DNA of 26,527 nt from positions 1-26,527 of IMG/VR virus record IMGVR_UViG_3300018082_000027. One strand, given 5' to 3'. The notes beneath the pieces were generated by a model that saw nothing but the letters and a program-made list of their open reading frames with translations, made no database searches and was not told where the DNA came from. A program made the translations under genes and the position numbers. Source of the DNA: a virus. This document shows, in pieces, positions 5,716 to 25,796 of the stretch; positions within the stretch are counted from its first letter, which is position 1, and each line of letters begins with the position of its first letter.

Positions 5716-6153
5716 TTATGCCTCCGCAGCCCAGGTGCCGATCTTGCCGATCGTGAACCAGCCTTTGTCCCCGTCGCCGACGACCGTCACCGAATCGCCC
5801 AGCACATCGGTGGCGCCGCTGTTGATCAGGTCCTTATTGTCCACGCCCTCGTTGATGTTGTCGGCGGCCGCCGGGCTCACGCTCAGTCCCGTGCCCGCGG
5901 ACACGGCCGCGTTCTCAAACGTGAAGCGCAGCCCCGCCGCCGTCGCTGGCAGCGTAAACACCAGGTCGGCGGCATCGGCGATGAAGACGGTGCCGCTCTC
6001 GCTCGCGAGGACCGGGTAGTTGGCCGTCTTCACAACGACGGGGCCCACCATCGACCCCCCCGCCTCCTGGGTGATCTTCCCGCCGCTGGCGATGACCTGC
6101 TCGTCGGCGCCTTGCTTCATGTACACCTTGGGCTCGTAGCTTGAATCAGGCAT
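5716..6153 (-). CDS. Head-region structural protein, beta-rich (possible decoration/fibre)
   Basis: A 145-residue protein. It opens with MPDSSYEPKVYMKQGADEQV and IASGGKITQEAGG, then a beta-rich stretch with a repeated 'aaDlvfTLPaTaaGlrftf' type pattern (residues about 60-82) that occurs in phage head-fibre and tail-spike base proteins. Near the end it has VTVVGDGDKGWFTIGKIGTW, another feature of that group, where a strand ends in 'g.W.~....gtw'. It is likely a capsid decoration or fibre subunit. The gene follows a hairpin-containing gap downstream of 6221. Confidence 0.65.
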   Translation of the reverse strand: MPDSSYEPKVYMKQGADEQVIASGGKITQEAGGSMVGPVVVKTANYPVLASESGTVFIADAADLVFTLPATAAGLRFTFENAAVSAGTGLSVSPAAADNINEGVDNKDLINSGATDVLGDSVTVVGDGDKGWFTIGKIGTWAAEA

Positions 6154-6178
6154 GTCCTTTTCCTCTCAGTTCAGGGAC

Positions 6179-6210
6179 CCTGGGGGCAGGCCCGAAGACC
6201 TGCTCCCAGG
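6179..6210 (-). other. 12-bp imperfect hairpin between two head-region genes
   Basis: CCTGGGGGCAGG at 6179-6190 and CCTGCTCCCAGG at 6199-6210 form a stem with one non-Watson-Crick pair and an 8-base loop. It lies in the 67-base gap between the genes ending at 6221 and starting at 6153. No T run follows in either direction, so a classical terminator is unlikely. It may stabilise or attenuate the capsid-region mRNA. Confidence 0.5.
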
Positions 6211-6220
6211 ATCAAAGGTC

Positions 6221-6661
6221 TCAGGCCGTCCCTTCGGCCGGGCTGACGTGCGTCTCGCCCGAAACGCCGGTGGCATGAGTGATCGGAGCCTCGCGCGGTC
6301 CATACTGCAGGTACTCCGCGGAGGCCACGACCGCGTTCGCAGTGCCCCGATCGACCACCACCCGGACGTAGCGCTCTGCCGGACGGAACAGGTCGATGTA
6401 GAACACCTTGTCGTCGTCGCTGTCGGCGATCGTCTGGGCGGTGCCGGCCAGGTCGGCGGCATCCGAGAGACCGGAGTCCGCGCCCTGCTGGGCCTTGATG
6501 CTGGTCACGGCGGTCGCCGTGATGGCGCCCATCGTGACGACGATCAGCACACCCTCGAAGCCGGACATGTCCAGCGTGGCGCCATTGATGTCGGTGGTGC
6601 CCGCCACACCGTTGGTCGGCGTGATCGCCTGCGTGATCTTGGCGTTCTTGCTCAGGTTCAT
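6221..6661 (-). CDS. Conserved-type phage protein next to major capsid
   Basis: A 146-residue protein with the pattern 'M-N-L-S-K-N-A-K-I-T...G-A-T-L-D-M-S-G-F-E-G-V-L-I-V-V', then DDDKVFYIDLFRPAERYVRV and a closing strand with EYLQYGP. Many phages carry a protein of this build immediately after the major capsid gene. Its exact role is not known to me; a beta-barrel virion accessory is likely. No signal or membrane segment. It starts 57 bases after the capsid stop, a gap without obvious regulatory structure. Confidence 0.65.
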   Translation of the reverse strand: MNLSKNAKITQAITPTNGVAGTTDINGATLDMSGFEGVLIVVTMGAITATAVTSIKAQQGADSGLSDAADLAGTAQTIADSDDDKVFYIDLFRPAERYVRVVVDRGTANAVVASAEYLQYGPREAPITHATGVSGETHVSPAEGTA

Positions 6662-6718
6662 GGTCCTTACCTACTCTTTCCCCGGCGGCCGCTCTCGCAG
6701 CTCCCCGGTTGAGGCGCG

Positions 6719-7957
6719 CTAGGCTAGCTTGACGCGCGCGAAGGCCTCCTCCAGCACCGGCATGCCGTCCGACTCCAGGCGGCCGATGAAGCCGACCTGG
6801 GAGGTCGCGGCATACAGCTCCTCCAGACGCTGCACCTCCATGTCGAGGCTATCGGCGATCCAATAGAACCGGAAGTCGCCGACGATCCCGACGTAGAGGC
6901 CGGTCGTGAAGGTGTTCGGTGCATATTCGCTCATGTGCACCGGCAGGCCCAGCAACCGATCGGGCTCGCCCACCCGGACGCTCTCGCGCCAGATGTATTG
7001 CCCCTCGCCGTCCTTCAGCTTGGCGGTCTGCTTGGCCCCGTCGCGGTGCAAGAACCAGCGGGCGTTCGGCCAGTACTGCCCCTTCAGGGCGTACTTGGCA
7101 TTGATCAGCCCGTCGAACTGGATGCTGGTGGTGGTGTTGCCGTCCGAGATGTCCCGGGCCGTCGAGATGCCCTGGGCCGAGGCGGTGAAGACGCCCAGCG
7201 GCCGTCCGGCGCCTGAGCCGGTCATGCCGGCTTGCTCCCAGGTCACCCCGAATTTGTAGGCCAGGCGCGCGAGCACCAGGGCCTCCGCGTCGGGGGAGAG
7301 CCGCAGCAGCTTGCGGCTGACCTTGATGAGCTTCGACAGCGGGTGAGGGTGCAGCTCCCGACGGCCGATGGCCATCGTGCTGTCCTCGCTCACGGCACTG
7401 ATCTCGCCGGTCCAGTCCCCATCCGCCGGGTCGGCGTCCAGCGACGGCACGCCCAGCGACTGCGCCCCGGTCACCTGGTTCACGGTGGCGAACTGGCGGA
7501 TGAAGACCTCGTTGTCCACCGCCTGGATCAGGTCCCGCACAAACTGCATCGGGGCCAGCAGGTAGCCGCCGGAGATGTCCACGTCCGCCTGCAGGGCACG
7601 GATCTCCGCCACCATCTCGGCGCTGAGGGCTCGCTCGCCGTTCGCCACGAAGGCACGGAAGGCGCTGCGGTACTCTTCCCGCTCGCGTGGATCGGTCGAT
7701 CCGCCGGACCGGCCTTCCGGATCCGGCCGGATCGGCTCGCCAGGCGTATGACGGCCTTCGAGCTCCGTCTCCAGCGCCTGCTGGCGCTCCTCCCGATCGA
7801 TCTGGGTGCGCATGGTGGCGGCCTCGTTCATCGCGCTGTCCCAGCGCGTCTGCTCCTCGGCGGTCAGGTCGCGCTTTTCGGCCTCCGCCGCCTTCAGGAG
7901 TTCGCGGGCCTGGGCAATCACGCCGGCCCGTTTCTCCAACAGTTCACGAATGTTCAC
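6719..7957 (-). CDS. Major capsid protein, HK97 fold
   Basis: A 412-residue protein. Residues 1-75 form a charged coiled coil (RELLEKRAGVIAQAREL ... LTAEEQTRWDSAMNEAATM) that acts as the scaffolding delta domain. A linker rich in Pro/Gly/Arg follows, and then the mature domain opens with SGGYLLAPMQFVRDLI near residue 134. Other family features are WEQAGMTGSGAGRPLGVF, LLGLPVHMSE and the C-terminal FIGRLESDGMPVLEEAFARV. The start is GTG at 7957, preceded by GAGGAGG seven bases upstream. The prohead protease gene directly upstream should remove the N-terminal coiled coil during maturation. Length and order fit HK97-type capsid proteins well. Confidence 0.93.
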   Translation of the reverse strand: MNIRELLEKRAGVIAQARELLKAAEAEKRDLTAEEQTRWDSAMNEAATMRTQIDREERQQALETELEGRHTPGEPIRPDPEGRSGGSTDPREREEYRSAFRAFVANGERALSAEMVAEIRALQADVDISGGYLLAPMQFVRDLIQAVDNEVFIRQFATVNQVTGAQSLGVPSLDADPADGDWTGEISAVSEDSTMAIGRRELHPHPLSKLIKVSRKLLRLSPDAEALVLARLAYKFGVTWEQAGMTGSGAGRPLGVFTASAQGISTARDISDGNTTTSIQFDGLINAKYALKGQYWPNARWFLHRDGAKQTAKLKDGEGQYIWRESVRVGEPDRLLGLPVHMSEYAPNTFTTGLYVGIVGDFRFYWIADSLDMEVQRLEELYAATSQVGFIGRLESDGMPVLEEAFARVKLA

Positions 7958-7997
7958 TGCACTACCTCCTCTTGTTTGCGATCACGGTTTGATCCAC

Positions 7998-9086
7998 TCA
8001 GCTGTGCTCGGCCAGCTCCTGCATTACCTGCCGCTCCCGGAACGCCAGGCGCGCCCGCCAGGCCTCCGGCTCGGCCTCACCGTCCCGCCCGCGCCCGGGC
8101 GGTCCGGTTTCAAGCCTGCCGTGCACCGCTGCCATCAGGTCCTGGAGCATCCGGCGGTCGGCGTCCGTCGACGTCCCGACATCCAGACGGGCCAGGGCCA
8201 GCTCAATGTCCCGGACTTCCATGCCCAGGACCGCGCGCACCTGCACGCTCGTCTGGGGGTAGGCCGGGAAGGTGACGGGCGACACCTCGTACAGCTGCGC
8301 ATTGTGCAGCTCGCGCAGGAGGCGCCCGTTCTCAGTCGTCCATCGGTCATCGCGGGCCTGGAAGCGGAAGGACATCTGGTCCACGTCCCCCCGCTCGATC
8401 GAGACCAGGAAATCGTTTGCCCACTGGGCCTGCGGCGGGTCGATGCGGAAACGTAGCCCGATCGCATCCTCTTCCAGCTTGAGCGTGCCGGCCCGGTTGC
8501 GGCCCAGCACGAAGGAATCCTCGTGATTCCAGAGCGCCCGGATGTCGTCTTCCTCGAGGGTCTGGGTGAAGGCGCCCGGGCGGATGATTTCGGTGAAGTC
8601 CCAGAAGGGCACCGAGGGAACGTTGAACACCGCCGCGTATCCCTCGATCCGCCGCTCTCCCCCCGTCCCGTTCACCCGCAGTTCCCGCAGTGGAAAGGAC
8701 CGCCGCTCCACGCCCATCAGGGGTAAAGGGTGAGAGCGCAGCTCGGGAGGCTCGATGTCGGCGTCCCGAAGGTGGCGGGCCAGGTGTTCCCAGACGCCTT
8801 GGCGATCCACTTCGGGGATCGTCGTCCCGCCGCGGGCGCCGTTCAGCACGGCGATGCCGGTAACCGCCGCCCGGGTGGAGGCGGCGCCAATCTCTCCGTC
8901 CTCGCCGACGAAATGGTGGATGAATGTGAAGGCGGCCTTGGTGGCCGGATCTCCATCGGGATCCTGCCAGGCAAAGGCTTTCTGGTAGTAGGACTCGTTC
9001 TCCTCCTCCCGGAGCCGGGCCTCGTTGTCGGGTCCCGACCAGGCATCCTCGGAGGTGGGGGTGGAATGCGATCGAATCGGGGGCAT
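7998..9086 (-). CDS. Prohead protease (HK97 family, S78) with N-terminal extra domain
   Basis: A 362-residue protein with two parts. Residues 32-117 (YYQKAFAWQDPDGDPATKAA ... AVLNGARGGTTIPEVDRQGV ... HLARHLRDADIEPPEL) are an accessory domain seen in many phage proteases and neighbouring virion proteins. Residues 129-290 are the protease: IEGYAAVFN, WNHEDSFVLGRNRAGTL with probable catalytic His188, and DVDQMSFRF with probable catalytic Ser239, followed by YEVSPVTFPAYPQT. It cleaves the delta domain of the capsid protein and itself. It lies between the portal and capsid genes as expected. A good GGAGAGGAG site precedes the ATG. Confidence 0.9.
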   Translation of the reverse strand: MPPIRSHSTPTSEDAWSGPDNEARLREEENESYYQKAFAWQDPDGDPATKAAFTFIHHFVGEDGEIGAASTRAAVTGIAVLNGARGGTTIPEVDRQGVWEHLARHLRDADIEPPELRSHPLPLMGVERRSFPLRELRVNGTGGERRIEGYAAVFNVPSVPFWDFTEIIRPGAFTQTLEEDDIRALWNHEDSFVLGRNRAGTLKLEEDAIGLRFRIDPPQAQWANDFLVSIERGDVDQMSFRFQARDDRWTTENGRLLRELHNAQLYEVSPVTFPAYPQTSVQVRAVLGMEVRDIELALARLDVGTSTDADRRMLQDLMAAVHGRLETGPPGRGRDGEAEPEAWRARLAFRERQVMQELAEHS

Positions 9087-17066: not shown

Positions 17067-17392
17067 TGGGCCTCCTGAGCCTTGAAGAAGATCCATCCGT
17101 GCCAGTTCTCACCGGTCCGGTATCGCTCGATGGCCACCAGGCCGCCTTCCGCGAGCTGCTCGGCGACCGGCGTCAGATCCCGGACCAGGTGCTCCCGTCC
17201 CCGCTCGTCGTAGGCCACCAGGTGCAAACGCTCGAGGCCGCTCCAGGAGCGGTCCCGGAAGAGCAGCGCCCCACCGGCCCAGCCCAGGTGCGCAGTCCAA
17301 TTGGGGAAGGCCATGGCCACAGGCAGCCACGCCGCCACCTCGTCCTGGGCCCTGACCTCGTAATTAGCGATGGCCTCCGCGGACACGGTCAT
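17063..17392 (-). CDS. Small soluble protein of unknown function in early operon
   Basis: A 109-residue protein from the ATG at 17392 with ATGA overlaps on both sides. It is Trp-rich (AAWLPVAMAFPNWTAHLGWAG, FRDRSWSGLERLH, NWHGWIFFKAQ) with an alternating strand pattern. The region resembles small phage proteins that bind single-stranded DNA or replication proteins only in general composition; I do not recognise the family. It lies between the helicase-loader-like gene and the interrupted zinc-finger gene. Confidence 0.65.
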   Translation of the reverse strand: MTVSAEAIANYEVRAQDEVAAWLPVAMAFPNWTAHLGWAGGALLFRDRSWSGLERLHLVAYDERGREHLVRDLTPVAEQLAEGGLVAIERYRTGENWHGWIFFKAQEAQ

Positions 17393-17883
17393 GGTGGTTT
17401 GGGTCCCTCCGCCGCCTCCACCCAGCCCGCCTGGATCCATGACCCCCACAGCGCCTGACGGTGCGCCCCCTCCGCCTCCGGATCCTCGAGGAGGTCGATC
17501 CGCCGCAGCAGCTCCCGAGCGTAGGCCCCCGCCGCCGGGCGGTGCATCGCCTCCAGCCACTCCGCGGCCTCCAGGAATGCTTGCCGGTTAATCGGCGTGC
17601 CGGCCGGGCTGGCCAGGCACTCCTCGTACCATAGCCTCACCAGCTGTCCTGGATCGGAGGACGTCGCCGGCGAGAGCGCACGGGCCGCCTTCAGGATGTC
17701 ACTCACCGCCGGGAACCATCGGCGCTCGACCGCCACGGCTCGGATCGCCGCCTGCAAGATCTCGTCCGGTAACGGCTGCAGCAGCTCGGCATAGACCTGG
17801 ATACTCTTCGTCGACAGCGGCGCCTGAGGATAGGCGGCCTCGAGGAAGCGCAAGGCTTCGGTCAGGGCCTGTTCACTGGCCAT
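17389..17883 (-). CDS. Probable replicative helicase loader (G39P-like)
   Basis: A 164-residue protein from the ATG at 17883. Residues 5-80 have the helical pattern of the SPP1 G39P-type loader/inhibitor domain: 'L..A.RFLEAAYPQAPLS.KSI.VYAELLQPLPDEILQAAI', then RRWFPAVSDILKAAR, where 'FP....I' is a typical mark. The rest is helical. It sits next to the HTH replication protein, as is usual for a loader plus initiator pair that recruits the host DnaB helicase to the phage origin. No phage DnaB or primase gene is visible in the window. The family call is moderate. Confidence 0.65.
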   Translation of the reverse strand: MASEQALTEALRFLEAAYPQAPLSTKSIQVYAELLQPLPDEILQAAIRAVAVERRWFPAVSDILKAARALSPATSSDPGQLVRLWYEECLASPAGTPINRQAFLEAAEWLEAMHRPAAGAYARELLRRIDLLEDPEAEGAHRQALWGSWIQAGWVEAAEGPKPP

Positions 17884-18709
17884 GCTGTTTCTCCTCCAGC
17901 CAGGCATCCACGGCGGATGGACGTTCCGGGCGCGCAGGTCGCGACAGCGGCCGCGGCGCCTGAAAACCATCCACCCGCCAGCGGTCCAGGATGCTCTGGA
18001 CAAATCGCACGTTGGGCCGGCGTCCGTCGGAGGATCGACGCGCCTCACCAATAGCAGCGATCACCCAGGCTTCACCCGGTAGGTCCTCGCCGGCGGCGCC
18101 GGATGGCAGGGCGCTCGCATGCCGCCCGGCCTCTTCCGCCAGGTCCGCCAGGTCCTCGGCGATGCCAGCCGTGATTGGCCCGCAGCTGTCTTCCCAGGCC
18201 TTGACCAGCGAGGCGAACAGATGTTCACCCTCGCGAACGAAGGGGGCCGTCGTCGGCGACGTCCCTCCTGACGGTTCTGTGACGCTTCCTTTGATGGTTA
18301 ATGACGGTTTGGGTGACATTTGAGGACTCTGAATGTCACCCCCCCCTGCCAGGATGTCACCCTCTGATGCCTCAGAGGTCACTCCAGGTGACAGGATGTC
18401 GCCCCTTTCGACAGTTGTGGCGTCTAGGGGGCGCCGTGGGGCTACAGGTAGGGTGATTCGATAGAGATGGACACCATTCGGGCCCGCATTCTCCCGGATC
18501 TCAACCTCTTTACCCTCGCCATGGCTTATGTCCTTCAGCAGCCGCTGGACGTGACGCCTTGAGCAGCGCGCCTTGTGCGCAAGCGTGTCGATGGAGGGCC
18601 AGCAGTAGCCGTCGTCATTGGTGAAATCGGCCAAGGCCAGCAGGATGAGCAGGGCGGTGCCGGTCTGTTTCGATCGGTCCCAGACCGCGGTCATGACTCG
18701 GATGCTCAA
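17873..18709 (-). CDS. Phage replication initiation protein (HTH_36-type)
   Basis: The best start is TTG at 18709: it gives MSIRVMTAVWDRSKQTGTAL, the usual opening of this family; GGGAGG lies five bases upstream; and it overlaps the previous stop as TTGA. It gives 278 residues. Residues 14-90 are a winged helix (LILLALADFTNDDGYCWPSI, LAHKARCSRRHVQRLLKD). The linker is Ser/Thr/Pro-rich with repeated 'GDI.SP' elements, and the C-terminal 120 residues are helical. Such proteins bind the phage origin and recruit the loader. The low-complexity linker (about 95-170) has three closely spaced GDIL/GDIQ motifs. Confidence 0.85.
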   Translation of the reverse strand: MSIRVMTAVWDRSKQTGTALLILLALADFTNDDGYCWPSIDTLAHKARCSRRHVQRLLKDISHGEGKEVEIRENAGPNGVHLYRITLPVAPRRPLDATTVERGDILSPGVTSEASEGDILAGGGDIQSPQMSPKPSLTIKGSVTEPSGGTSPTTAPFVREGEHLFASLVKAWEDSCGPITAGIAEDLADLAEEAGRHASALPSGAAGEDLPGEAWVIAAIGEARRSSDGRRPNVRFVQSILDRWRVDGFQAPRPLSRPARPERPSAVDAWLEEKQHGQ

Positions 18710-19122
18710 ACTTCCCTCCCATGAAATAACCCATGGCAGGGGCGGCATAAAACGATCAGGTCGCTGGCCTCTTCGTCCAGATCGCCGAGGTGTTCGTACG
18801 TCCTGTGGTGAACGTCAAGGACGCCCGAGCCATTGCAAATCTGGCAACGGTAACCGGCTCTTTGGAGAGCCTCGCGACGTTGCCGGCTCCAATGCTCGGT
18901 AGCGAGGTAGTCTACATAGGGTATGGATCTGAAATACCTCCTTGCCGCGGCGACAAAGAGCGCCTCCAACTTGCCAATCACCCTAAGCCGAAGGTCTTGC
19001 CCATCGGCCGACAGCGCGAACTGAGGATGGTGAGTCTCGAAGTCCCTAATCATGGCGAGCAGCTGCCCCATCGTCTCGGGCACGCTCACGAAGGAACCGA
19101 CGAGGTCATCTTTCAGGGTCAT
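18706..19122 (-). CDS. HNH endonuclease
   Basis: A 138-residue protein from the ATG at 19122 (AAAGG seven bases upstream); an upstream ATG would overlap the previous gene more. The C-terminal part has a complete HNH site: HWSRQRREALQRAGYRCQIC (Cys93, Cys96), then VHHRTYEHLGD (His105-106) and LIVLCRPCHGLFH (Cys126, Cys129, His130). The N-terminal 70 residues are helical and may bind DNA. Placed beside the replication protein, it could be a homing nuclease or act in recombination; the zinc ligands and catalytic His are intact. Confidence 0.85.
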   Translation of the reverse strand: MTLKDDLVGSFVSVPETMGQLLAMIRDFETHHPQFALSADGQDLRLRVIGKLEALFVAAARRYFRSIPYVDYLATEHWSRQRREALQRAGYRCQICNGSGVLDVHHRTYEHLGDLDEEASDLIVLCRPCHGLFHGREV

Positions 19123-22113: not shown

Positions 22114-22120
22114 GGAGGCT

Positions 22121-22147
22121 GGGGGTTCGAAGCCCCTCAGGCACCCC
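22121..22147 (+). other. Putative attP core: tRNA 3' end (T-arm plus acceptor strand)
   Basis: GGGGG-TTCGAAG-CCCCT is a T-arm with the conserved TTCGA loop and a G53-C61 closing pair. It is followed by seven acceptor bases CAGGCAC, then CCC where C73-CC(A) would be. The remainder of a tRNA is absent, which is the usual form of an attP that restores the 3' end of the host tRNA gene after integration. It starts 7 bases after the integrase stop. A C at position 73 is typical of bacterial tRNA-His; the exact tRNA is uncertain because the crossover may end earlier. Confidence 0.7.
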
Positions 22148-22180: not shown

Positions 22181-22408
22181 CTACAGCAAGAACGTCCAGA
22201 CCAGTAGCGCCAGGAACGCGATGGCGCTGAACGCCAGCAGTAGCAGCACGAAGCCGATCGGGAGCATTAAGACGGCGACGAGCGTGCGGAGATCGACCGC
22301 GATGCGACGCAGCAGCAGCTCCTGGACCAGCTGCGCGGCGAATGTTCGGGTGGCCGGATCGGCCGACTGATCGCTCACGATGCGCAGGAGTTCTTTCTCG
22401 GATGACAT
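22181..22408 (-). CDS. Small membrane protein of the lysogeny region
   Basis: A 75-residue protein from the ATG at 22408 with GGGAGG upstream. The first 40 residues are charged and helical (MSSEKELLRIVSDQSADPAT and on), and residues 42-75 are one long or two short membrane spans (VAVLMLPIGFVLLLLAFSAI and more). It is convergent with the integrase and downstream of the repressor. Membrane proteins expressed from prophages at such places often block superinfection, but nothing in the sequence proves that here. Confidence 0.7.
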   Translation of the reverse strand: MSSEKELLRIVSDQSADPATRTFAAQLVQELLLRRIAVDLRTLVAVLMLPIGFVLLLLAFSAIAFLALLVWTFLL

Positions 22409-22518
22409 AGCTTTCCTCCCCGGTTGATTTGGCATCTCCAGCCCCCGGGGCTGTGGTGCACCCGCCAGGACTCTCAATCCGAGTGCGGGCAGCGGCCGTG
22501 ATCGTGGAGCGGCCCGGG

Positions 22519-22558: not shown

Positions 22559-22798
22559 CTAGCTGCTCTCGGCTCCATCCGGCGAGGTGACGACCAGGTC
22601 GCTGACCTCCACCTGGAAGACATCCACCAGGCGATTCAGCGTATCCAGCGTCACATTCATCGGCTTGCCGCGCGCCAGACCCTGAGCCGTAGGCCAGGAC
22701 AGGCCCGACTTCCGCATCAGATCGGAAGCGGTCCAGCCTCGCTCTTCGAGCAGCTCTGGGACCCGCAAACGCAGGATCCCGGGTGGCATGCTGATCAC
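22559..22798 (-). CDS. HTH repressor (Xre/Cro-C1 type)
   Basis: A 79-residue protein with one HTH domain: LRLRVPELLEERGWTASDLM, RKSGLSWPTAQGLARGKPMN, then 'VTLDTLNRLVDVFQVEVSDLV', the normal Cro/C1 helix pattern. No protease or RecA-responsive domain is present, so induction must work differently from lambda CI. I chose GTG at 22798: AGGAGG at 22808-22803 precedes it by 4 bases, and the predicted transcript start is near 22813, which would leave the ATG at 22813 without a leader. The ATG at 22813 gives five more residues (leaderless) and remains possible. Confidence 0.85.
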   Translation of the reverse strand: MISMPPGILRLRVPELLEERGWTASDLMRKSGLSWPTAQGLARGKPMNVTLDTLNRLVDVFQVEVSDLVVTSPDGAESS

Positions 22799-22819
22799 TG
22801 GGCCTCCTCTCATGGCGCC

Positions 22820-22848
22820 ATCCTACAGGCTTCCTGGGGAATTGTCAA
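22820..22848 (-). promoter_or_regulatory. Leftward repressor promoter (minus strand)
   Basis: On the minus strand TTGACA (22848-22843) is followed after 17 bases by TAGGAT (22825-22820), matching the sigma-70 -35 perfectly and four of six -10 positions. The start point would be near 22813, giving a leader of about 15 bases for the GTG start. This is the analogue of a maintenance promoter. Confidence 0.65.
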
Positions 22849-22857
22849 GCGCAGTAT

Positions 22858-22898
22858 ATACCGTGTAAGTTGACACGGTATCAAATCGATTGTATAGT
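22858..22898 (+). promoter_or_regulatory. Rightward early promoter with overlapping inverted-repeat operator
   Basis: TTGACA at 22870-22875, 17 bases, then TATAGT at 22893-22898 is a near-consensus sigma-70 promoter. ATACCGTGT (22858-22866) and ACACGGTAT (22873-22881) form a perfect 9-bp inverted repeat with 6-base spacer that covers the -35 box, so a bound repressor dimer would block the rightward operon. The site is 10 bases from the leftward -35, so it could also affect repressor transcription. Confidence 0.75.
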
Positions 22899-22916
22899 GT
22901 GCGCATGGAGACGCCT

Positions 22917-23180
22917 ATGAATGAGTCCCGCAGCCCTCGCCTGCCGGCCGATCCGGAAGGCCACCATCTGATCACCCGGATGAACGCCCTGGTGCTGCTG
23001 GGCAGGTTGGATGTCGTCGAGGTGGACCGCGTGGTCCGCGACGAGGACTGGAAGCGGGCCCGACGCCTCATCCGGTCGGTGCGCGACATCCGGCCGCTGC
23101 CTGCGTGGGGGCAGTGTCTTCCCAGCGATCGCGGGCCGGGACGATGCCGGATCATCCCGATCGATCCGATGGTCGAGTAA
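22917..23180 (+). CDS. First gene of the rightward operon, small unknown protein
   Basis: An 87-residue protein from the ATG at 22917, preceded by GGAG five bases upstream within a 12-base leader; a leaderless ATG at 22905 would add four residues. It reads RLPADPEGHHLITRMNALVL, then RLDVVEVDRVVRDEDWKRAR, a helical middle with charged pairs, and a Pro/Cys end. The position of a cro or antirepressor gene, but no HTH is clear, so the function is open. Confidence 0.65.
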   Translation: MNESRSPRLPADPEGHHLITRMNALVLLGRLDVVEVDRVVRDEDWKRARRLIRSVRDIRPLPAWGQCLPSDRGPGRCRIIPIDPMVE

Positions 23181-23184
23181 GCCC

Positions 23185-23550
23185 TTGCCCCTCTACCGAA
23201 TTCGCCACCGCCCCACGGATGCCTTCCGTTATCTGGAGGCGCCTTCGGCCCAGGATGCGTGCACCCTGGCCGGCTGGAGGATCGGCGACTGCCACGTGAG
23301 TCTGCTCCGGGAAGGGCCGCTGACGTATCCAGATCGGCCAGAGCGCCTGATCCTCCACTCGCAGGATCTCACCGAATTGCAGCAGCGCCTGGACGCCTCG
23401 CGGGGCGGCCTGTTCCGGATCCAGAGCTATGCCACCAGTGCGCTCGGTTGGGCCGGCGAGCACCCGACCGAAGAGCAGTATCGGAACATCATCCGCCTCA
23501 TCCAGGACGTGGCCATTGCCACACTCGAGCAGCCCCCGGAGGACCCATGA
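23185..23550 (+). CDS. Unknown protein between operon leader gene and ParB-like gene
   Basis: A 121-residue protein from the TTG at 23185, 4 bases after the previous stop. The frame is open further upstream but those residues are the shadow of the first gene. It contains LYRIRHRPTDAFRYLEAPSA, RIGDCHVSLLREGPLTYPDR, a strand-loop-helix build and ends PPEDP. Its stop overlaps the ParB-like start as ATGA. I do not recognise the family; tight coupling suggests joint action with the ParB-like protein. Confidence 0.65.
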   Translation: MPLYRIRHRPTDAFRYLEAPSAQDACTLAGWRIGDCHVSLLREGPLTYPDRPERLILHSQDLTELQQRLDASRGGLFRIQSYATSALGWAGEHPTEEQYRNIIRLIQDVAIATLEQPPEDP

Positions 23551-25241
23551 CCCTTCAGAACGTCCCGCTCTCGAAGATCCACCCCAATCCCTGGCAGACC
23601 CGCACCGAGGAAGAGCCCGAGACCGTCCAGCGGGTGGGCAACTCCATCTCCAGCGAAGGCCTGCTGCAGATCCCGATCGGGAGGCCTTCCCCGGGCCTCC
23701 CCGGCCACGTGCAGCTCGCCTTCGGCCATACCCGCCTGGCGGCGCATGAGTGGCTGGGCCGGGAGAGCATGCCGGTCGAGGTCCGCGAGCTCACCGATCG
23801 CCAGATGGCGGAGCTCGCCATCCGGGAGAACCGGGACCGCTCGGACTTATCCCCGATCGAGGAGGCCCGGGCCATGTTCGCCTACCAGCGGGATTTCGGG
23901 GCCACGACGGACGAGGTCGCCGCGCTGTGGGGCCTGGAGGCCTCGACCATCCGCTCCAAGCTGCGTCTCCTGAGATTGCCCGAGGCGGTGCAGGCCCATG
24001 TCCATGCCGGCCGGCTTCCGGAGCGCACTGCCCGGCAGATCGCGCCTGTCGCCCGGATCGACGCAGGCAAGGCTGCGGAGCTCGCCGATGTCCTGGCCGC
24101 CTCAGACGATCTGGATCCGGAGAAGATCACTGGGGAGATCCGCTCCCGCATGGACCAGCTCTCCCGCAAGATCGCCGATCCCTGGGACGACGGCCGAGCC
24201 GGCCGGGGCTGGTGGAAGCTGGATCAGCCCTTCCCTGGCCTGTCGGCCAGGACAGGCGAGCCCGGCGCCGAGGTCCGGAAGGAGGAGCTGGCGGAGGCGC
24301 TGGCGGATCTCTTCGAGGGCGATCGGAAGCGGGCCGGCGTGGCCGGCGTGGGCGTGCTCGCCTGGCTGGAGGCGCCGGAGGGCATGGCGCTGGCCAGCCA
24401 CATCCCGGAGGAGGCTGTCGAGCGGGTGCGCCATCTGCTGAGTCCGCCGGCCTGCACCGCCTGCCCCTTCCACGCCGAGGTGGGCGGCATGCACTACTGC
24501 AGCTTCGACCCCTGCTGGACGGTGAAGAAACGGGCCTGGATCGCCCAGGACCTGGCCCGGGTGCAGCGGAAGAAGGCGCTCAAGGGCATCGCCCGTTACG
24601 ACCGGAAGGCCGACGGGCCCAAGGCCGCTAGCGACTATTCCAGTGACCCTGTCGGCACGAAGATTCGCAAGGCGCTCGGGGTCCACCAGCTCACGGACCT
24701 GCGCCTGGCCGTCTCGAGCAGCCCCGGCTACACCGAACACGATCACACGGGCTCACCGTTCGTCCAGGTGGTGCTCGTCGGCAAGCAGGCGGTCCAGGCC
24801 AAGAAGCGCCGGGAGGCGCCGGTCGATTGGAAGAAGGAGGATGAGGAACAACGCCGGCGGGAGGCCGAGATCGAACGGGTGCAGCAGGCAGCGGCCCCGC
24901 ACTTCGCCGCGCTCTTCGCCGGCTTCAAGGACTGGACCCTGGTCGAGCGCCTCCTGCGGCTGCTCGCCCGCGACGAAGGGCCGCCCGGACGGCGGACGGA
25001 GCTCTTCCCGGACGACAATCCTCGCGCCCGGAAAGCCACCCGCCTGGCCGCCGCCCGGCGCTACCTGGGCCGGGCGTGGGTGGAGCTGTACAGCCAGTGG
25101 GCTCTGAGGGACCAGGGCGGCAAGGCCCTGGTCAAGCACCTGCAGGGCGTGGCGAGGACCTCCGGGGTCAAGCTGCCCAAGGGATGGGCCGATCCGGCCC
25201 TGAGTGTGGCCGCGGACACGGTGGAGGAGGTGACCCAATGA
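23547..25241 (+). CDS. ParB/Spo0J-like protein with Cys-rich middle domain
   Basis: A 564-residue protein from the ATG at 23547 (GGAGG five bases upstream). Residues 1-110 are a ParB N-domain: 'L.KIHPNPWQTR', GHTRLAAHEWLG at 60-71 (the GERR-type box) and ENRDRSDLSPIEEA at 94-107. A HTH follows at about 118-142 (TTDEVAALWGLEASTIRSKL). Around 302-335 is CTACPFH ... HYCSFDPCW, a probable zinc site, and the C-terminal 230 residues are charged and helical. ParB-family proteins are CTP-dependent DNA clamps; others are nucleases. The boxes are complete. The usual short dimerisation tail is replaced by a long C-terminus, and no ParA is seen. Confidence 0.85.
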   Translation: MTLQNVPLSKIHPNPWQTRTEEEPETVQRVGNSISSEGLLQIPIGRPSPGLPGHVQLAFGHTRLAAHEWLGRESMPVEVRELTDRQMAELAIRENRDRSDLSPIEEARAMFAYQRDFGATTDEVAALWGLEASTIRSKLRLLRLPEAVQAHVHAGRLPERTARQIAPVARIDAGKAAELADVLAASDDLDPEKITGEIRSRMDQLSRKIADPWDDGRAGRGWWKLDQPFPGLSARTGEPGAEVRKEELAEALADLFEGDRKRAGVAGVGVLAWLEAPEGMALASHIPEEAVERVRHLLSPPACTACPFHAEVGGMHYCSFDPCWTVKKRAWIAQDLARVQRKKALKGIARYDRKADGPKAASDYSSDPVGTKIRKALGVHQLTDLRLAVSSSPGYTEHDHTGSPFVQVVLVGKQAVQAKKRREAPVDWKKEDEEQRRREAEIERVQQAAAPHFAALFAGFKDWTLVERLLRLLARDEGPPGRRTELFPDDNPRARKATRLAAARRYLGRAWVELYSQWALRDQGGKALVKHLQGVARTSGVKLPKGWADPALSVAADTVEEVTQ

Positions 25242-25591
25242 GCGAAAACCGGGAGCTGAGTGATGTGATGATCGAATTTGTCTCGCGGTTGGAAGCCGAT
25301 GGAGTTGATGAGGTATCACTAGAATTAGTCAAGCTACGTTGGATTCCAGAGGTCGCCGCCCTCGAAGCCAAGGCTGAGTGGAAGGACGCCTTCGATGAGG
25401 GCCAGGTCATTGGCATGCATACAACCTCAACCGATGCCGAGAACCCCTATCCCAAGGGGAGCAATCCCTATGCAGGATGGTCTTTTGGTTTCTGGCGAAG
25501 TCGTGACCGGTCTAGGAGATTCGCCCTCGAAGCCAGGCTCGAGGCGATAGACCAATTCGAGGATCTGAAGCAGTTCTGCTACTGGGGCTGA
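25238..25591 (+). CDS. RMF-like (ribosome modulation factor type) protein candidate
   Basis: A 117-residue protein from the ATG at 25238 (GGAGGAGG upstream; ATGA overlap with the ParB-like stop). Residues 48-90 read 'WKDAFDEGQVIGMHTTS', then 'ENPYPKGSNPYAGWSFGFWR', close to the RMF layout 'A..EGy.aG...~~nPYp.gs....W..Gw'. RMF dimerises ribosomes. RMF itself is about 55 residues, so the N-terminal 45 residues (helix, acidic) and the tail are extra. AT content is higher than in neighbours, hinting at a different origin. Family call is moderate. Confidence 0.65.
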   Translation: MSENRELSDVMIEFVSRLEADGVDEVSLELVKLRWIPEVAALEAKAEWKDAFDEGQVIGMHTTSTDAENPYPKGSNPYAGWSFGFWRSRDRSRRFALEARLEAIDQFEDLKQFCYWG

Positions 25592-25602
25592 TCGCCAACG
25601 AC

Positions 25603-25710
25603 TTGGATAACCCACGCGATGCAACCCACGAAGAGGTCATGCGGGCACGAGCCGGATGGCTTCGGAAATTTGCAAAGAGGATCCACACCGACCAAGAGGG
25701 GACAAAATGA
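25603..25710 (+). CDS. Tiny charged peptide downstream of RMF-like gene
   Basis: A 35-residue frame from a TTG at 25603 (an ATG lies at residue 13): helical, charged (EEVMRARAGWLRKFAKRIHT). No strong ribosome binding site precedes the TTG. Its stop overlaps the next ATG as ATGA, the coupling pattern used through this genome, which is the main reason to take it as real. Confidence 0.4.
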   Translation: MDNPRDATHEEVMRARAGWLRKFAKRIHTDQEGTK

Positions 25711-25796
25711 CCGCCCTCCCCTTTTCCCTCCGCCTCAAGTGGATCCGCTTCAAGTCCTGGCTGCGGGCGCGGCGGAGCTCGACCCCCTCCCCCTAA
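25707..25796 (+). CDS. Tiny basic amphipathic peptide, last gene of rightward operon
   Basis: A 29-residue frame MTALPFSLRLKWIRFKSWLR then ARRSSTPSP, preceded by GAGGGG six bases upstream and coupled to the previous frame by ATGA. Basic, Trp/Phe-rich and amphipathic, it might bind membrane or nucleic acid. The stop overlaps the stop of the convergent virion-type gene by 4 bases. Confidence 0.4.
   Translation: MTALPFSLRLKWIRFKSWLRARRSSTPSP

Follow-up and report, generated by a model that had tools for sequence, protein, structure and literature searches.

Orphan ParBs are enriched on mobile elements, including prophages and plasmids, and some of them bind cytidine triphosphate (CTP), ATP or GTP, according to the available text of Kaljevic et al. 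2025 (PMC12704722). ParB-type clamps are also described as regulators of the promoters of their own mobile elements, namely KorB of plasmid RK2, a CTPase clamp able to silence distant promoters (PMC11790492), and, in the accessible part of its account, BisD of ICEclc (PMC13393423). Here, a ParB-type protein is described from the IMG/VR virus record IMGVR_UViG_3300018082_000027, the entire length of which (26,527 bases, classed as linear; hereafter the window) was analysed. The protein is 564 amino acids (aa) long, is encoded at 23547..25241 on the plus strand, and belongs to a tightly packed rightward operon of genes A to F (22917-25796), in which it is the product of gene C. The reading favoured here, held at about an even chance of being right, is that this ParB acts early as a CTP-gated clamp on phage DNA, in the control of transcription or replication.

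Judged by its sequence, the window ParB is an orphan ParB as the available text of PMC12704722 defines the term, having clear ParB similarity and a gene outside any parAB operon. It further shares with the orphans treated there the ParB fold, a positive TIGR00180 score, the absence of a ParA-binding motif and a home on a prophage-type element, but neither a four-cysteine (Cys4) domain nor a subfamily with GHxR as box II is described for them in that text. BisD is comparable in being ParB-like, carried by an integrating element and subject to a regulatory cascade, and ParA is given no part in the available description. BisD acts, however, with BisC from bisS sites, and neither a BisC nor such a site was identified for the window; the two are likened by description, not by sequence. 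KorB, comparable as a ParB-type CTPase clamp that serves as a transcription regulator, is a strong fold match (PDB 8qa9) but has ~19% sequence identity to the window ParB, and no KorA homologue was found, although no search was aimed at one. KorB is not known to have a long Cys4 half. Noc of Bacillus, which is independent of ParA, provides the best fold match and the highest-scoring NCBIfam model, but the 102.7 bits obtained are far under the Noc cut-off of 315. Finally, Variovorax phage VarioGold and Acidovorax phage Aval, both temperate, encode a long Cys4 ParB, and the stretch shown contains no annotated ParA; their proteins differ in having GERR as box II, a longer cysteine spacing (CxxCxKRTG...CTDxxC) and a place on another branch of the tree.

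The ParB protein and its predicted early promoter

Residues 1-170 of the protein form a ParB_N plus HTH_ParB unit, for which the Pfam matches (1.9e-10 and 41.1 bits against a cut-off of 26.3; 3.7e-15 and 56.4 bits against 22.6) and that of TIGR00180 (94 bits against 58.45) all exceed the curated cut-offs, confirming the ParB-like identity proposed when the DNA was read from its sequence only. Alignment with Bacillus subtilis ParB (6sdk) pairs NPWQTR with NPYQPR, GHTR with GERR, and ENRDR with ENLQR, so that the nucleotide-pocket residues of boxes I-III are kept (PxQxR, GxxR and ENxxR), box II being GHxR, not GERR. In an AlphaFold2 model made with 15 sequences, residues 1-200 have a predicted local distance difference test (pLDDT) score of about 85-95, and the model is confident to about residue 205; its best PDB fold matches are Noc, ParB-CDP, ParB-CTPgammaS and KorB, with sulfiredoxin (Srx) a weak one. 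The ParB of the PRTRC system (TIGR03734), considered for its length, was rejected at 56.7 bits against a cut-off of 278.6, with residues 19-151 alone matched. The Cys-rich domain noticed earlier is likewise present, as the motif CTACPFHAEVGGMHYCSFDPCWTVK (24453..24527, plus strand; residues 303-327), whose cysteines C303, C306, C318 and C323 resemble a zinc site and whose block is predicted to form a hairpin and then a helix (pLDDT ~70-79). From the motif alone, Cys4 may be a zinc site able to dock a partner. When the uncharacterised C-terminal region was searched by itself, no match was obtained in phages, plasmids or Pfam, and a chance match only in the PDB.

Upstream, the operon is divergent from the gene for a Cro/C1-type helix-turn-helix (HTH) repressor of 84 aa (22559..22813, minus strand; Pfam HTH_26, 2.8e-14). 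A rightward P_R-like promoter, TTGACA-17-TATAGT, lies at 22870-22898 on the plus strand and agrees with the sigma-70 consensus at 11 of 12 positions, and a promoter-like site for the repressor, TTGACA-17-TAGGAT, lies at 22848-22820 on the minus strand, by consensus match only; two promoter-like sites were found against 0.3 expected. The -35 element of the rightward promoter is covered by an operator-like dyad with 9-bp arms, ATACCGTGT-N6-ACACGGTAT (22858-22881), which in the usual layout would be the operator of the repressor. Going by consensus spacing, the transcript would begin around 22905, with only a few bases ahead of the start codon at 22917. This near-consensus site, with its -35 inside the dyad and a divergent Cro/C1-type repressor beside it, bears out the repressor-type promoter of the earlier interpretation, and it is reasonable to suppose that the proteins of the operon are among the first made on derepression.

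The claim that this ParB comes without a ParA also holds within the window record, in which no AAA_31 or CbiA match was found, an absence that is not final given that the record is probably a fragment. Across a set of 15 records (the window and 14 others, some of which may be incomplete), a ParA-type ATPase is missing from 14, that is, from the window and 13 of the others; the sole one, in the record of locus L033 (G014), lies ~4 kb beyond its ParB gene. The ParA-binding motif [LFI]G[KR]G[LFI], as defined in PMC12704722, is absent from all 15 ParBs, the window's included, and according to the available text of the same paper the ParB of P1 is also without this consensus. A tyrosine integrase is found in 12 of the 15 records, and the one in the window matches the Phage_integrase profile of Pfam at 6.6e-29. 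Canonical plasmid and phage ParBs (Sphingopyxis, Planctomyces, Deinococcus, Aphanizomenon phage), which have ParA adjacent, were set aside as relatives, sharing only about residues 1-170.

The early, repressor-controlled expression predicted from the promoter, the retained pocket and the lost link to ParA all fit a clamp acting on phage DNA. Since related proteins with a conserved Cys4 motif lie in control and replication regions of many other phages, the ParB probably regulates or organises phage DNA and is less likely to belong to a partition system. In the mechanism proposed, for which we infer NTP (nucleoside triphosphate) binding, clamp closure, zinc binding, a target site and a regulatory or replication role, the operon would be the P_R-type operon transcribed early and rightward in a temperate siphovirus that integrates. 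Once the repressor is lost, the ParB would be among the first proteins made, would load at a specific phage DNA site via its HTH domain, and would close into a clamp on CTP or another NTP and then slide. The Cys4 domain and the C-terminal half would recruit or block a partner, such that phage transcription or replication would be regulated in cis. Such working would resemble that of the BisD/KorB/VirB-type regulators, CTP clamps that load at a site and act on distant promoters.

Related ParBs in other phages

A scan with the ParB alignment yielded 34 viral loci. Fourteen full or near-full ParBs, including that of the window, combine a GHxR box II with an invariant C-x2-C-x8-16-C-x4-C-x3-K/R motif. 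In a tree built on N-terminal sequences, these 14 proteins group with motif-less phage GHxR proteins, apart from the ParA-partnered ParBs (branch 98/86), and a second Cys4 set (VarioGold, Aval, L045 and L046) falls on the ParA-partnered side. Having long branches and many unresolved forks, the tree fits a single or a multiple origin of Cys4. The long ParBs of a Microcystis phage and of Gordonia phage Eyes were also checked, and neither has the Cys4 motif. PHROG ParB-like models match mainly the N-terminal part, with two reaching the Cys region in L016 and L023, and Cys4 members may already sit, unnamed, within phrog_4715 and phrog_18726. As a class, orphan ParBs of phages have already been described in print, and the GHxR/Cys4 subfamily within them looks unannotated: a limited literature search found it undescribed in the available text of Kaljevic et al., and no curated family covers the C-terminal half.

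A replication initiator is encoded immediately or one gene upstream of the ParB in five of these phages, with a DnaA_N match in L016, L023 and L033, a Phage_rep_O match just below the cut-off in L025, and an HTH_36 match in L037. Single-stranded DNA-binding (SSB)-like genes follow the ParB gene in L016 and L023, as recognised by sequence and not by hidden Markov model. The suggestion that the operon is not a known replication set was only half right, given that related phages have the ParB beside an initiator and the cultured temperate phages VarioGold and Aval carry their Cys4 ParB in the early or integration arm. As separate observations, the initiator-like proteins beside the ParB in L016 (5080-5973), L023 (4540-5424) and L033 (4876-5973) have DnaA_N at the C-terminal end, and L023 has two overlapping tandem ParB-type genes (6001-8395), the second of which encodes 298 aa, also with a cysteine-rich C-terminus.

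Flanking genes and other features of the window

Two close IMG/VR contigs, L002 and L003 (the latter ending within the ParB gene), were compared with the window, to whose ParB theirs are 87% and 81% identical, respectively. All three have in common the integrase, an att-like segment of tRNA T-arm type, a small membrane open reading frame (ORF) that runs leftward, a divergent repressor that keeps its position but differs in sequence, a sigma-70-like promoter (seen directly in the L002 and L003 sequences, upstream of ORF A), ORF A and the ParB. In the slot of ORF B, L002 has two other genes and L003 has one; in place of ORFs D and E, L002 has a weak MazG-like gene and others, followed by ORF F and then a HIRAN gene. 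By this comparison, the backbone of the locus is constant and is interrupted by two cassette slots, before and after the ParB, that hold exchangeable small genes. The gene set is accordingly conserved only in part: ORFs B, D and E, absent from close relatives, are not conserved together with the rest, an outcome that had been named beforehand as refuting, whereas ORF A and the ParB stay together. On this conserved backbone, the three relatives also differ from one another in their repressor and operator-like sequences (22559-22881), a pattern that heteroimmune variants would be expected to show.

The coupling of the frames by 0-4 bases, reported at first for the whole operon, applies to every junction (A-B, +4; B-C, -4; C-D, -4; E-F, -4) but D-E, where the gap is +11. 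ORF A (22917..23180, plus strand), which encodes a small protein in the cro position with a predicted three-helix core, has an alternative in-frame ATG upstream at 22905 and is 77% identical to its counterpart in L002 (94% at the nucleotide level in the core) and 39% to that in L003. No relatives were found beyond these two, no Pfam family was matched, and no fold match was better than E=3.4. ORF B (23185..23550, plus strand; 121 aa from a TTG start), in the first variable slot, is coding-like and has no relatives found. The G+C contents at the three codon positions (0.73/0.48/0.83 for A, 0.70/0.48/0.80 for B and 0.73/0.49/0.89 for the ParB) match those of the phage's own integrase and terminase, and A and B are therefore plausibly real genes. 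The second slot holds ORF D (25238..25591, plus strand; 117 aa), for which no relative was found among viral contigs, and the doubtful ORF E (25603..25710, plus strand; 35 aa from TTG), both lower in G+C than their neighbours. ORF F (25707..25796, plus strand) encodes 29 aa and is kept in L002, where 21 codons are 92% identical at the nucleotide level; its peptide, MTALPFSLRLKWIRFKSWLRARRSSTPSP, is basic and aromatic-rich and closes a cassette whose remaining content is replaced in L002.

ORF D had been taken for an RMF-like protein and possible ribosome effector, a call that failed in all profile and direct sequence comparisons. It has no Pfam match to PF04957 at E<=1, no hit in a six-frame profile search at E<=10, and no BLASTP alignment with Escherichia coli RMF at E<=100; tblastn of ORF D in phages gave one chance match (E=3), and E. 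coli RMF searched in phages gave matches all at E >= 1. The resemblance consists of a loose G..NPY..W..GFW pattern alone. By sequence, the RMF call is not supported and is to be dropped, although the two may be related at the level of the fold.

By content, the window phage is temperate, integrating and siphovirus-like. Leftward HK97-type head genes were read by eye, and a tape-measure-like gene is truncated by the left end of the record. The replication module is on the minus strand and comprises an HTH_36 initiator (17873-18748) and an adjacent G39P-like loader (17389-18051), the latter a weak match whose score (E=0.0064) does not reach the curated cut-off. A search for the host by two scans of genome contigs gave no match. 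Directly after the integrase stop, the segment GGAGGCTGGGGGTTCGAAGCCCCTCAGGCACCCC (22114-22147) resembles a tRNA T-arm and 3' end and is conserved in L002 and L003; it is likely the attP core and could point to the host. The small leftward ORF (22181-22408, minus strand), downstream of the repressor, has a hydrophobic C-terminal segment and a weak DUF6183 match alone, and is possibly expressed in lysogeny. Between it and the repressor stop, about 50 bp of non-coding DNA (22408-22460) are almost invariant in the three phages, in which column identity over the wider region averages 74%. This block contains the palindrome CAGCCCCCGGGGCTG (22439-22453) and is a candidate for a ParB site, an operator or a 5' leader hairpin.

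Alternatives and significance

Several points weigh against a CTP-gated clamp on phage DNA. With GHxR instead of GERR in box II, the nucleotide may not be CTP, and of 28 ParB-fold proteins tested, 17 failed to bind any NTP, according to the available text of PMC12704722. A search for parS by way of recurring palindromes found none in the window, no loading site was identified, and the conserved palindrome within 22408-22460 is a single copy, not repeated beyond chance. The C-terminal half of the ParB is modelled poorly, and Cys4 is missing from some members of the GHxR branch. Adjacency of ParB and initiator in five phages is only suggestive, as early phage genes in general may also lie that close; the window's own initiator lies ~4.8 kb off on the opposite strand, leaving no local initiator link.

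Among the alternatives, host takeover or counter-defence is judged unlikely. An early ParB would here clamp host DNA or inactivate a host or defence protein, with the slot genes as accessory counter-defence cassettes; this agrees with the early expression expected from the promoter, with two hypervariable slots whose unrelated small genes (weak MazG-like and HIRAN in L002) are as in accessory modules, and with the anti-defence role suggested for some prophage ParB fusions in the accessible part of PMC12704722, but the ParB belongs to the constant part, not to the slots, and related ParBs adjoin replication genes. A bolder form of the clamp reading, which we hold to be quite unlikely, makes the GHxR/Cys4 phage ParBs a distinct ParA-free family of NTP-gated clamps that would act as a licensing device, loaded near an origin or early promoter, the zinc domain docking the initiator or RNA polymerase, and the NTP level or the loading timing the switch from lysogeny to replication. 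That the ParB is mainly an autoregulator of a lambda-like early operon, repressing or tuning its own promoter, is improbable: KorB-type repression is known and the ParB does sit in the early operon, but the cro position is held by ORF A, and 564 aa with a Cys4 domain would exceed what autoregulation needs. It is highly doubtful that the protein is a nuclease or metabolic enzyme on the ParB/Srx fold and not a clamp; although 'ParB-like nuclease' is a frequent annotation for phage genes of this fold, and SerK and Srx use it enzymatically (PMC12704722, available text), HTH_ParB is present, alignment and fold best match the clamp-type ParB, Noc and KorB, and the sulfiredoxin match is weak. Partition of a plasmid-like prophage, with a ParA supplied by the host or by an unseen gene of the phage, is the least probable, and the partition-like system raised in the sequence-only reading was not upheld and is to be dropped, for while the ParB domains are complete, the record is probably fragmentary and L033's has a ParA-type ATPase, the window record has an integrase, as most of the set do, no ParA gene and, like the other ParBs, no ParA-binding motif.

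ParB-fold orphans are abundant on mobile elements, and their function is mostly not established. The GHxR/Cys4 group offers a bounded and testable set, marked by a pocket variant, an invariant Cys4, no ParA, temperate phages and frequent adjacency to an initiator. If one member turned out to clamp phage DNA under NTP control, phage development would join the processes served by ParB clamps; should none be a clamp, the group would represent a further loss or change of the ParB switch. Either way, the labels 'partition protein' and 'ParB-like nuclease' would need correcting for the GHxR/Cys4 group.

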